Under the pieces are notes generated by a model, which saw nothing but the letters and a program-made list of their open reading frames with translations, searched no databases and had not been told where the DNA came from. From Rhodospirillales bacterium (lineage in GTDB: Bacteria; Pseudomonadota; Alphaproteobacteria; Geminicoccales; Geminicoccaceae), in the NCBI GenBank assembly GCA_015490605.1, contig WFXL01000152.1:1-54339 (forward strand): a stretch of DNA of 54,339 nucleotides. The letters are read 5' to 3'. This document shows positions 1 to 4,204 of this stretch, one piece after another. Each line of letters begins with the position of its first letter. The first letter of the stretch is position 1. The position numbers and the translations under genes were made by a program.

Positions 1-428
1 ACATCACTGCCCTCGCCCGTCATTTCGCCCGCCGTTTCGCCCGCCTCAACGGCCTGCCGGAACGGCTGCCGGACGAGGCCGCGCTCGCCCGCCTGAGGGC
101 CCACACCTGGCCGGGCAATGTCCGGGAACTCGAGAACTGCCTCCACCGGGCCGTACTGCTGGCGAGCGGCGATCACATCGGTCCCGAGGCCATCCTCCTG
201 GACGGCCCGGCGCCCGACCCGGCTCCGAGCCCGGTGGCTACCAATGCGCCCCTGGCCTGCCGGCCGCTTGCTGAGATCGAGCGCGAGGCCATTCTTCGCA
301 CCCTTGAGCGCACCCACGGCAACCGCACCCGCGCGGCCGAGCTTCTCGGCATCTCCATCCGCACCCTGCGCAACAAGCTGCGCCAGTATGCCGAGGCCGG
401 CATCGCCGTGCCGCCGGCGCGAGGCTGA
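1..428 (+). CDS. flbD: Sigma-54-dependent response regulator, C-terminal part (FlbD-like)
   Basis: The window opens inside this gene; the readable frame begins at base 3. What remains is the end of the AAA+ sigma-54 activator domain, with the WPGNVRELEN motif that closes this domain, then a proline-rich linker and a Fis-type helix-turn-helix (HGNRTRAAELLGISIRTLRNKL). Such proteins activate sigma-54 promoters through enhancer-bound oligomers. The immediate neighbour is flhA, and in alphaproteobacteria the class III flagellar regulator FlbD sits in that place, so FlbD is the best identity. The receiver and most of the AAA+ core lie outside the window, so whether the receiver is canonical cannot be judged. 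Another NtrC-family regulator remains possible. Confidence 0.8.
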   Translation, partial: ITALARHFARRFARLNGLPERLPDEAALARLRAHTWPGNVRELENCLHRAVLLASGDHIGPEAILLDGPAPDPAPSPVATNAPLACRPLAEIEREAILRTLERTHGNRTRAAELLGISIRTLRNKLRQYAEAGIAVPPARG

Positions 429-440
429 GGAGGCCCGTCC

Positions 441-2540
441 ATGCACGCCCTGGCCGGTCTCCTCCCACCGCGGCTTGTGGGCTGGTTGCGCCGTGGCGCC
501 GGCCAGCGGGACATTCTCTTCGGCCTGGGCGTGGTCGCCATCCTGGTGGTGCTGATCCTGCCGATCCCGACGGCGCTCTTGGACGTGTTGCTGGCGGTGT
601 CGCTGGGCTTCGCGGTGCTGGTGCTGCTCACCACCATGTTCGTCACCCGGCCGCTGGACTTCAGCGCCTTCCCCACGGTGCTGCTGGTGGCCACCATGCT
701 GCGGCTTGCCCTCAATCTCGCCTCCACCCGGCTGATCCTGGCCCAGGGCCATGAGGGGCCCACCGCCGCCGGCGAGGTGATCGCCGCCTTCGGCGGCTTC
801 GTCATGCAGGGCAATGTGGTGATCGGCCTGATCGTGTTCGCGATCCTGGTGATCGTGAACTTCGTGGTGATCACCAAGGGCTCCGGCCGCATCGCCGAGG
901 TGGCGGCGCGCTTTACCCTCGATGCCATGCCCGGCAAGCAGATGGCCATCGATGCCGATCTCTCCGCCGGGCTCATCGATGAGGAGACCGCCCGCCGCCG
1001 CCGGCGCGAGCTCGAGGAAGAGGCGGCCTTTTACGGAGCCATGGATGGTGCCGCCAAGTTCGTGCGCGGCGATGCCATCGCCGGCCTGCTGATCACCGCC
1101 ATCAATCTGGTGGGCGGGCTGGTGGTGGGGGTGGTGCAGATGGGCGTCGACCCCGCCCAGGCGATGCGCACCTATTCGGTGCTCACCATCGGCGACGGCC
1201 TCGTCTCCCAGATTCCGGCGCTGGTGATCTCCACCGCCGCCGGCATGCTGGTCTCCAAGGGTGGCACCCAGGGGCGCGCTGATGAGGCGCTGTTCGGCCA
1301 GCTCGGCGCCAACCCCCGCGCCTTGGCCATGACCGCCGCGCTGGTGGCAATCCTGGCGCTGCTGCCGGGCCTGCCGGCCTGGCCCTTCCTGCTGTTGGCG
1401 GCTGGCCTCGGTCTGCTGGCGCGCCACCTCGCCCGCCGCCAGCAGCAAGAGGCCACCACCGAAGCCGCCAGCGAGAGCCCCCGGGAGACCCGCGAGGCGC
1501 CGACCGCCGACGACCCGCTGCGGGCGCTTGCCATCGATCCGGTGCGGCTGGAGCTGGGCTATGGGCTGCTGCCGCTGGTGGATCGCGGCGAGGGGGCGAG
1601 CCTGCCCGACCAGATCCGCGCGCTTCGCCGGCAGCTCGCGGCCGAACTCGGCTTCCTCATGCCGGCGGTGCGCATCCAGGACAACATCCAGCTGCCCGCC
1701 GACACCTATGTGATCCGGGTCAAGGAGCTCGAGGCCGGCCGCGGCGAGGTTCGCCCCAACATGCTGCTGGTGATGAACCCGCGCGGCGATGAGATCGAGC
1801 TTCCGGGCGAGGATACCCGCGAGCCCACCTTCGGCCTGCCGGCCCGCTGGGTAGCACCACGCCACCGCGACGAGGCCCTGGCGCGGGGCTATACGGTGGT
1901 GGATGCGGCCACCGTCATCACCACCCACCTGACCGAGATCGTCAAGGACCATCTGGCGGAGCTCCTGGGCTTCGCCGAGACCCGGCGGCTCCTGGACGCG
2001 CTCCCCGAAGAGAGCCGCAAGCTGGTGGACGAGCTGGTGCCGTCCCGCCTCACCCTCACCGAGATCCAACGGGTGCTTCAGGGTCTTCTGGCCGAGCGCG
2101 TGTCCATCCGCGATCTGCCCACCATCCTCGAGGCCATCGCCGAGGCGGTACAGCACACCCGCAGCACCCTGCGCCTGATCGAACATGTGCGCAGCCGGCT
2201 TGCGCGTCAGATCAGCTTCGCCTGCCGCGGGCCCGGCGGCTATGTGCCGGTGGTCACGCTCTCGCCCGAGTGGGAGGAGGCCTTCCACAATGCCCTCACC
2301 GGCCCCGAGGACGAGCGCGTGCTCGACATGCCGCCGGACCGCATCCAAGCCTTCCTTCAGCGGCTGCGTGAGGTGTTCGAGGGGCTTGCCGCCCGTGGCG
2401 AGCTGCCGGTGCTGGTCACCTCGCCCACCATCCGCCCCTATGTGCGCTCGGTAGTGGAGCGCGCCCGCCCGGCCACGGTGGTGATCAGCCACGCCGAGAT
2501 CCACCCGCGGGTGCGCATCCGCGTCCTCGGGCAGGTGTAG
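441..2540 (+). CDS. flhA: Flagellar biosynthesis protein FlhA
   Basis: FlhA forms the ring-like export gate of the flagellar type III secretion system in the inner membrane; its cytoplasmic nonamer docks chaperone-substrate complexes. The 699-residue product has the usual length. Residues about 28-330 carry repeated hydrophobic segments, and the conserved FHIPEP-family loop is visible around residues 143-176 (ITKGSGRIAEVAARF, DAMPGKQMAID). The C-terminal half is the soluble substrate-docking domain. The ATG is preceded by a GAGGAGG ribosome site at good spacing. The gene follows the flbD-like regulator by 12 bases and precedes flhF by 3, so they are probably cotranscribed. No damage is seen. 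Confidence 0.97.
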   Translation: MHALAGLLPPRLVGWLRRGAGQRDILFGLGVVAILVVLILPIPTALLDVLLAVSLGFAVLVLLTTMFVTRPLDFSAFPTVLLVATMLRLALNLASTRLILAQGHEGPTAAGEVIAAFGGFVMQGNVVIGLIVFAILVIVNFVVITKGSGRIAEVAARFTLDAMPGKQMAIDADLSAGLIDEETARRRRRELEEEAAFYGAMDGAAKFVRGDAIAGLLITAINLVGGLVVGVVQMGVDPAQAMRTYSVLTIGDGLVSQIPALVISTAAGMLVSKGGTQGRADEALFGQLGANPRALAMTAALVAILALLPGLPAWPFLLLAAGLGLLARHLARRQQQEATTEAASESPRETREAPTADDPLRALAIDPVRLELGYGLLPLVDRGEGASLPDQIRALRRQLAAELGFLMPAVRIQDNIQLPADTYVIRVKELEAGRGEVRPNMLLVMNPRGDEIELPGEDTREPTFGLPARWVAPRHRDEALARGYTVVDAATVITTHLTEIVKDHLAELLGFAETRRLLDALPEESRKLVDELVPSRLTLTEIQRVLQGLLAERVSIRDLPTILEAIAEAVQHTRSTLRLIEHVRSRLARQISFACRGPGGYVPVVTLSPEWEEAFHNALTGPEDERVLDMPPDRIQAFLQRLREVFEGLAARGELPVLVTSPTIRPYVRSVVERARPATVVISHAEIHPRVRIRVLGQV

Positions 2541-2543
2541 GCC

Positions 2544-3470
2544 ATGCGGTTGCGCGTGTTCGAGGCTCCCACCCTGCAGCAGGCGCTCGCGGCCATGCGC
2601 CGGGAGCTGGGACCGGACGCGGTCATCCTCGGCACGCGCGAGGGGCCCCATGGAGCCCGGGTGACGGCCGCACGGGCGGTGGTCGAGCCCCCGCCGGCGC
2701 GCCTGCTGGAGGTGGAGCCCACCGCGGTGGCGGCCGCCCTCGCGCGCCATCTCGGAGCTCACCGCCTGCTGGAGTCCCACCGCCGGCGCCTGCTGGAGGC
2801 TGCGGAGGCCAGCGGACTGGCCGAAGCCGAGGCGGCCCTGGCCCACGCCTTGGCTCAGCTCGGCCGCTTTACCGCGCCCGAGGTGGTGGCGCGCGGCCGT
2901 TGGGCGCTGGTGGGACCGCCGGGCTCTGGCCGCACCACCCTCCTTGCGCGCATGGCCGCCGCCGCCCGGCTCGCCGGCACGGCTGTGCGCACCGCCTCGC
3001 TGGATCTCGAGCGCGCCGGTGTGCGGGCGCGGACGGAAGCGCTGCTGATGCCGCTGGGGCTCAGGCTCGAGCCGGTGGAGGCGGCAGCTGCTGGCGAGGC
3101 GGCGCTGGTGCTGGTGGACACCGCTGGTGTTGATCCCTTCGAGGGTGCTGCCCTCGCACGCCTTGCCTCCATCCTCGAACGGTTTCGGCTGGCGCCGCTG
3201 CTGGTCCTGCCCGCCGCCCAGGACGCCCTCGATGCCTTCGAGATCGCCTCCAACTTCCGTGCCCTCGGCTGCGAACACGCGCTCATCACCCGGCTCGATA
3301 CCGTCCGCCGCCTGGGCGGGGTCGTCGGCCTGCTGGCGGCGGGACCGGCGCTGGTGGGAGCCACCGCAAGCCCCCGGCTCGCCCACGGAATCCGGCCACT
3401 CACCCCGGCGGCTCTCGCCCGCCTTCTGATCCGTCTCTCACCATCCGATCTCCAGGAGAGCGATCCATGA
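2544..3470 (+). CDS. flhF: FlhF-like SRP-family GTPase with Arg in the P-loop
   Basis: FlhF is an SRP-type GTPase that marks the site of flagellum assembly. This 308-residue protein has the N-terminal segment typical of the family (ELGPDAVILGTREG) and a G domain from about residue 119. Visible G motifs are the P-loop GPPGSGRTT (residues 124-132), DTAG (192-195) and TRLD (249-252). The P-loop lysine expected in GxxGxGKT is Arg130, read directly from codon CGC. The G4 motif has Arg where TKLD is usual; as I recall, that variant also occurs in other alphaproteobacterial FlhF. The gene lies between flhA and flhG and overlaps flhG by 4 bases, which supports the identity despite the substitution. 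GTP binding may be weakened. Confidence 0.9.
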   Translation: MRLRVFEAPTLQQALAAMRRELGPDAVILGTREGPHGARVTAARAVVEPPPARLLEVEPTAVAAALARHLGAHRLLESHRRRLLEAAEASGLAEAEAALAHALAQLGRFTAPEVVARGRWALVGPPGSGRTTLLARMAAAARLAGTAVRTASLDLERAGVRARTEALLMPLGLRLEPVEAAAAGEAALVLVDTAGVDPFEGAALARLASILERFRLAPLLVLPAAQDALDAFEIASNFRALGCEHALITRLDTVRRLGGVVGLLAAGPALVGATASPRLAHGIRPLTPAALARLLIRLSPSDLQESDP

Positions 3471-4204
3471 GTCGCATGGTGGCCATCGCCTCAGGCAAGG
3501 GAGGCGTGGGCAAGACCTTCCTTTCGGCGACCCTCGGCCATGCGCTGGTCCGGCGCGGGCGTCGCTGTCTCGTCTTCGACGGCGACCTTGGCCTTGCCAA
3601 TCTCGACGTTCAGCTGGGCGTAGCGGCCTCGGCCGACCTCGGCCAGGTGCTCCGGGGACAGCTCGATCTCGCCGAGGTGGTGGTGCACCACCGCCCCACC
3701 GGCCTCGATCTGGTGGTGGGGCGCTCCGGCTCGGGCCTGTTCGCCGGCCTGCCGCCCGCACGGGTGGCGGCACTGGCCGCCCGCCTGCGGGAACTCGCCC
3801 GCGACTATGATGTGGTGCTGCTGGATCTCGCCGCCGGCATCGAACCCCCCTGTCGGGTGCTGGCACGAGCGGCCGACGAGGTGCTGGTGGTGACCACCGA
3901 GGAGCCTACCGCCCTCACCGATGCCTATGCGTTCCTCAAGGTGGCCTGCGACCGCCGGCGGCCGGTGGGGGTGGTGGTCAATTTCGCCGACGACCTCGCC
4001 CGCGGGCGCGAGACCTATGAGGCCCTGGCCCGCGCCTGCCGCCAGTTTCTCGGCCTCGAGCCACGGCTCGTGGGGATCATCCGCCGTGACCCAAGGGTGG
4101 CGGATGCGCTGCGCGCCCAGATGCCGTTCCTGCTGCGCCATCCCCAGAGCGTGGTGGCGGAGGATGTGGAGGGACTGGTGAGGGCCCTGGCGTCGGGAGC
4201 GTGA
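3467..4204 (+). CDS. flhG: Flagellar number regulator FlhG/FleN, MinD-like ATPase
   Basis: A ParA/MinD-type ATPase that partners FlhF and limits flagellar number. The deviant Walker A motif KGGVGKT is at residues 11-17, followed by FDGDLGLANLDVQLG, typical of FleN/FlhG, and a Walker B-like VLLDLAAGI. At 245 residues it starts directly at the Walker strand; the first possible start in this frame is the ATG that overlaps flhF (ATGA). It therefore has no N-terminal DQAxxLR activator helix like that of B. subtilis FlhG; P. aeruginosa FleN also lacks it. It is the last gene of the flagellar run, and a 1-kb gene-free stretch follows. Confidence 0.92.
   Translation: MSRMVAIASGKGGVGKTFLSATLGHALVRRGRRCLVFDGDLGLANLDVQLGVAASADLGQVLRGQLDLAEVVVHHRPTGLDLVVGRSGSGLFAGLPPARVAALAARLRELARDYDVVLLDLAAGIEPPCRVLARAADEVLVVTTEEPTALTDAYAFLKVACDRRRPVGVVVNFADDLARGRETYEALARACRQFLGLEPRLVGIIRRDPRVADALRAQMPFLLRHPQSVVAEDVEGLVRALASGA

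Follow-up and report, generated by a model that had tools for sequence, protein, structure and literature searches.

The FlhF protein encoded in the window (the whole stretch of DNA that was analysed, 54,339 nucleotides of contig WFXL01000152.1 from a Rhodospirillales bacterium, assembly GCA_015490605.1) carries arginine in place of the P-loop lysine, and this substitution is real, rare and recent and lies in a gene that looks functional. An earlier note on this DNA had pointed to the change, and the observation is borne out: codon CGC at positions 2931-2933 specifies Arg130 in the motif GPPGSGRTT, which departs from the intact G1 pattern GxxxxGK[ST]. The note's interpretation of it is supported in part.

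To compare the residue in relatives, as the same note had proposed, FlhF proteins were collected at the level of genus, family, class, phylum and beyond and aligned over the GTPase core (247 distinct proteins). The P-loop lysine was kept in 245 of these, including all three other species of the genus, each with codon AAG. By group, it was kept in 23/24 members of the family, 129/129 other alphaproteobacteria, 70/70 proteins of a set dominated by gammaproteobacteria, 1/1 Magnetococcales and 22/23 others. The second exception is a Dehalococcoidia protein (L109, metagenome-assembled genome HKST-UBA80) that reads GPAGGGRST. L109 is a very divergent FlhF-like protein encoded downstream of flhA, with an independent P-loop arginine and weak G3 and G4 motifs.

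Locus, fold and nucleotide pocket

The gene is flanked by flhA (5') and flhG (3'), the position expected of flhF (Table 1). The source assembly (2.19 Mb, 157 contigs, 89% complete) looks like a metagenome-assembled genome and holds, besides FlhA and FlhG, two flagellins and FliG. Three SRP54-family matches were found in it; apart from flhF they are FtsY and Ffh, and a second FlhF copy was therefore rejected.

Table 1. Features of the flhF locus and motifs of its product, in positions of the window
Feature	Position	Strand	Remarks
sigma54 activator, C-terminal part	3..428	+	Translation with WPGNVRELEN and C-terminal HTH; contig begins inside the gene; presumably FlbD
flhA	441..2540	+	Export gate gene; operon shared with flhF
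flhF	2544-3470	+	308 aa, lysine-free, SRP-type GTPase
FlhF N-terminal domain (aa 1-46)	2544..2681	+	Expected FliG-interaction domain, beta-alpha-beta-beta
P-loop (G1) GPPGSGRTT	2913..2939	+	Arg130, codon CGC
G2 D154-L-E-R157	3003..3014	+	Asp and catalytic-type Arg kept; aromatic residue of DTYR missing
G2 Gln position (xxQL in most FlhF)	3030..3032	+	Arg163; common to the window and two relatives (G002, G003)
G3 DTAG	3117..3128	+	By alignment
G4 TRLD	3288..3299	+	Ordinary for the class
flhG	3467..4204	+	245 aa, MinD-type ATPase without DQAxxLR helix; 4-base overlap with the end of flhF

The product matched the Pfam SRP54 family above its cut-off (3.2e-10). Against the FlhF family TIGR03499 it scored 69.3 bits (5.1e-19), below the curated cut-off of 174; the listed alphaproteobacterial FlhF proteins likewise score below it, and the cut-off does not discriminate here. 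An AlphaFold2 model (alignment of 25 sequences) had a mean pLDDT of 92.7, and the best FlhF matches of this model in the PDB by Foldseek were 8r9r (TM-score 0.80) and 2px3 (TM-score 0.78; both by target length). Pfam and Foldseek together place the protein in the SRP-type NG GTPase fold. Residues 2-44 are predicted to form strand, helix, strand and strand (E2-8, H11-22, E27-34, E37-44), followed by a short linker (about residues 47-60 in the model) and the NG fold. The FliG-interaction domain (FID) of S. putrefaciens FlhF was crystallised with three strands and one helix (PMC11236974), and the predicted N-terminal domain of the window protein matches it. This domain is among the best-conserved parts of the protein, with 84% identity to the same-genus sister species (G002); the G4 region has 88%.

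The nucleotide pocket retains the P-loop Gly and Thr, G2 Asp154 and Arg157, DTAG and G4 Asp252, and has lost the P-loop Lys and the G2 Gln. By alignment, Arg157 would be equivalent to Vibrio R334 and Pseudomonas R251, the role of the catalytic arginine being taken from the Vibrio study (PMC6092412). At the G2 Gln position, 133 of 153 alphaproteobacterial FlhF have Gln and 15 have Arg. This residue was probably lost earlier than the P-loop lysine, because it is also missing in G002 and G003. The G4 arginine, which the earlier note had singled out, is indeed present but is no special sign: T-R-x-D is the majority form outside the family (99/129 alphaproteobacterial FlhF; 9/24 within the family), and Ffh of the same genome also reads TRLD. 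DTAGR was likewise rejected as a hallmark common to FlhF, as most gammaproteobacterial FlhF differ after DTxG.

Compared with described FlhF (TIGR03499; PDB 2PX0/2PX3 and 8R9R), the window protein shares the beta-alpha-beta-beta N-terminus, the NG fold, the flhA-flhF-flhG operon, the G2 Asp and Arg, DTAG and the G4 Asp, but differs in its P-loop arginine, lack of any lysine, short linker, score under the cut-off and missing G2 Gln and aromatic residue. It resembles the short alphaproteobacterial FlhF in length (about 310-350 aa), TRLD, a DTxGxNP-type G3 and a partner FlhG without DQAxxLR, whereas all 152 other distinct members examined have the P-loop lysine.

FlhG and the activator helix

FlhG begins directly at the Walker strand (MSRMVAIASGKGGVGKT) and, as the earlier note had remarked, lacks the DQAxxLR activator helix. 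An earlier start that would add the motif was rejected, since DQAxxLR was not found in the in-frame upstream extension of flhG, and an orphan motif elsewhere in the genome was rejected because four pattern matches against three in a reversed control amount to chance. The helix is absent from all 146 alphaproteobacterial FlhG found, whether the FlhF of the same genome keeps its lysine or not. DQAxxLR was present in 28/64 FlhG of the gammaproteobacterial set and in 15/22 others (a few loose matches counted), and Pseudomonas FleN is also without it (PMC12713375). Helix loss as a trait of the window was rejected; it is class-wide. Two of the three points raised beforehand (TRLD and the FlhG helix) thus describe the class and not this FlhF itself. 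The absence of the helix across the class shows that activation of FlhF by FlhG, as textbooks describe it, is not universal, and the single substitution points to a class-wide question.

Pairing of the helix with the G2 loop was counted over the 247 FlhF loci. All 40 FlhG with a strict DQAxxLR outside alphaproteobacteria had a partner FlhF with Tyr, Phe or His at the third G2 residue (the DTYR type). Conversely, such a residue was missing from 166 FlhF (143 from alphaproteobacteria), and none of these was paired with a DQAxxLR FlhG; 27 FlhF had the aromatic-type residue without the FlhG helix. These counts, which ignore kinship and serve as a lead only, suggest that the activator helix of FlhG and the G2 loop of FlhF were lost or changed together.

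The Walker A motif of FlhG varied as well. In the three species examined of one genus of the family (g10; L022, L023, L024) it reads SAKGGVGRT or SGKGGIGRT, with Arg for Lys, and their FlhF keep GKS. One further FlhG (L010, genome G020) reads SGKGGAGTT, with the second Lys missing, and another (L008, genome G026) shows a disruption or frameshift in the assembled sequence.

Nucleotide binding and hydrolysis

The need of FlhF for GTP hydrolysis varies among the species studied. In V. alginolyticus, R334A abolished GTPase activity and left localisation and flagella normal, and K305A gave fewer flagella (some were still made), less polar FlhF and a protein that precipitates; hydrolysis by FlhF is shown to be dispensable in Vibrio, whereas function in V. 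cholerae and V. alginolyticus is linked to GTP binding, which seems to be the step that matters (PMC6092412). K305 is the same P-loop position as Arg130, and R334A indicates that flagella are compatible with loss of hydrolysis, but both are laboratory mutants, K305 was changed to Ala, and the window FlhF keeps its catalytic Arg. The identical Lys-to-Arg substitution in RecA (K72R) removed the ATPase almost wholly (PMC4001326), although RecA is an ATPase of another fold and the change was engineered. A natural G1 arginine occurs in the septin pseudoGTPase Cdc11, which is still used for assembly (PMC10731463), though as a fixed hetero-oligomer subunit of a eukaryotic family.

We consider it about an even call that the window FlhF, which is of the short alphaproteobacterial type, is a working protein and a non-cycling tether between the pole and FliG, with GTP bound but poorly hydrolysed. 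This reading is favoured because the kept pocket residues and the Vibrio, RecA and septin results point the same way together, and impaired hydrolysis upon loss of the P-loop lysine is a plausible prediction. In the mechanism we propose, Arg130 would still neutralise the beta and gamma phosphates, GTP (perhaps also GDP) would be held at lower affinity, and hydrolysis would be slow or absent. The N-terminal domain would bind FliG and the NG domain would sit at the cell pole, giving a nucleotide-stabilised or static tether that could work without a fast GTPase cycle. We infer the FliG and pole contacts from Shewanella, in which the first 44 residues of FlhF bind FliG and the NG domain binds HubP independently of nucleotide (PMC11236974). 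The change may have been tolerable because FlhG throughout the class has no activator helix, so that stimulated hydrolysis was perhaps of little importance even before, and because the strong Lys-to-Arg bias of this GC-rich genome had already removed every other FlhF lysine. Against this reading, loss of the lysine could cost binding and stability, as in Vibrio K305A, though Arg is a milder replacement than Ala, and the divergence of flhF, about twice that of flhG per synonymous change, possibly reflects relaxed constraint.

A wider version of the proposal would hold that alphaproteobacterial FlhF-FlhG pairs have no FlhG-stimulated hydrolysis and that FlhF is a static GTP-bound tether throughout, with the window lineage as the end point at which even the P-loop lysine was lost. 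It is drawn from the FlhG without activator helix and the FlhF without G2 aromatic residue, and we hold it only tentatively, at well under even confidence.

The nucleotide-independent FlhF suggested by the earlier note is not favoured. It would be a pseudoGTPase in which Arg130 fills the phosphate pocket and the protein is a purely structural adaptor between the pole and FliG. The G1 Arg of Cdc11 is seen where a clash with the phosphate is expected (PMC10731463), the Shewanella NG-HubP contact needs no nucleotide, and the G2 Gln is missing too; however, docking has the Cdc11 Arg touching the beta and gamma phosphates instead (PMC10731463), the Vibrio results link function to GTP binding, and DTAG, the G4 Asp, the P-loop Thr and the G2 Asp and Arg are all kept, although their loss would be expected from a pocket no longer in use. 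On balance we judge this alternative unlikely.

Lysine loss, timing and selection

The window FlhF has no lysine in all 308 residues and 35 Arg in 300 aligned residues. Its sister in G002 has one lysine, that of the P-loop, and the rest of the family has 1-7. Across the window genes, K/(K+R) averages about 0.13 (gene calling was crude and took in some antisense frames). From these counts (none, then the P-loop residue alone in the sister, then few in the family), the P-loop lysine was the last one left in a protein from which lysines had long been disappearing. Lysine is thus available neither in cis nor from the other subunit of a homodimer, and the window and sister FlhF form a clean natural pair for testing the role of hydrolysis.

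Such drift bears on a further alternative, somewhat less likely again than the pseudoGTPase, namely that the replacement was conservative and nearly neutral in a GC-rich genome and left the GTPase cycle essentially normal. Lysine has been swapped for arginine across the whole protein, the rate of FlhF is unchanged after the substitution (see below), and the genus described above carries Arg in the FlhG Walker A in three species. General base-composition pressure alone is nevertheless insufficient, because Ffh, FtsY, FlhG and the ABC ATPases of the window genome retain GKT or GKS under the same bias; 23 of the 24 FlhF of this GC-rich family keep the P-loop lysine despite few others, and RecA K72R demonstrates that this very exchange can almost abolish hydrolysis.

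In a maximum-likelihood tree of FlhF, the window protein pairs with that of G002 (support 100/99; terminal branches 0.29 and 0.25, respectively), and the P-loop lysine was lost on the terminal branch of the window only. The change is recent and confined to one branch, because the sister protein, 70% identical, keeps Lys. A relative-rate test with G003 as outgroup counted 18 unique changes in the window against 19 in G002; the substitution rate has not accelerated since the loss. Pairwise dN/dS against G002 (NG86) was about 0.30 for flhF, 0.16 for flhG and 0.20 for flhA (498 aligned residues). Purifying selection thus acts on flhF, though with weaker constraint than on flhG and flhA. Early decay would mean that the lineage has ceased to need FlhF and that its loss begins to show in the P-loop change. 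It would fit the flhF ratio, which is about two times the flhG value and 1.5 times the flhA value, and seven other family genomes gave no FlhF match in the search used. The intact frame, the dN/dS of about 0.3, the equal relative rates, the conserved N-terminal domain and G4 region and the presence of flagellar genes speak against decay, which we regard as improbable.

Least credible is an assembly or consensus error, although the genome is represented by one assembly and a second assembly of the species was not found. The earlier note had named a sequencing error at this codon as a possible refutation. CGC has no base in common with AAG or AAA at any of the three codon positions, which rules out a single wrong base call; three adjacent wrong bases would be required, within flanking sequence that is in frame and aligns well.

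Two other observations were made in the FlhF sample. The FlhF of genome G029 (L013) has the P-loop GPPGASKT, in which the Gly preceding the Lys is replaced by Ser, and one alphaproteobacterial genome (G038) carries two FlhF-like genes (L025 and C40:23802-24503).
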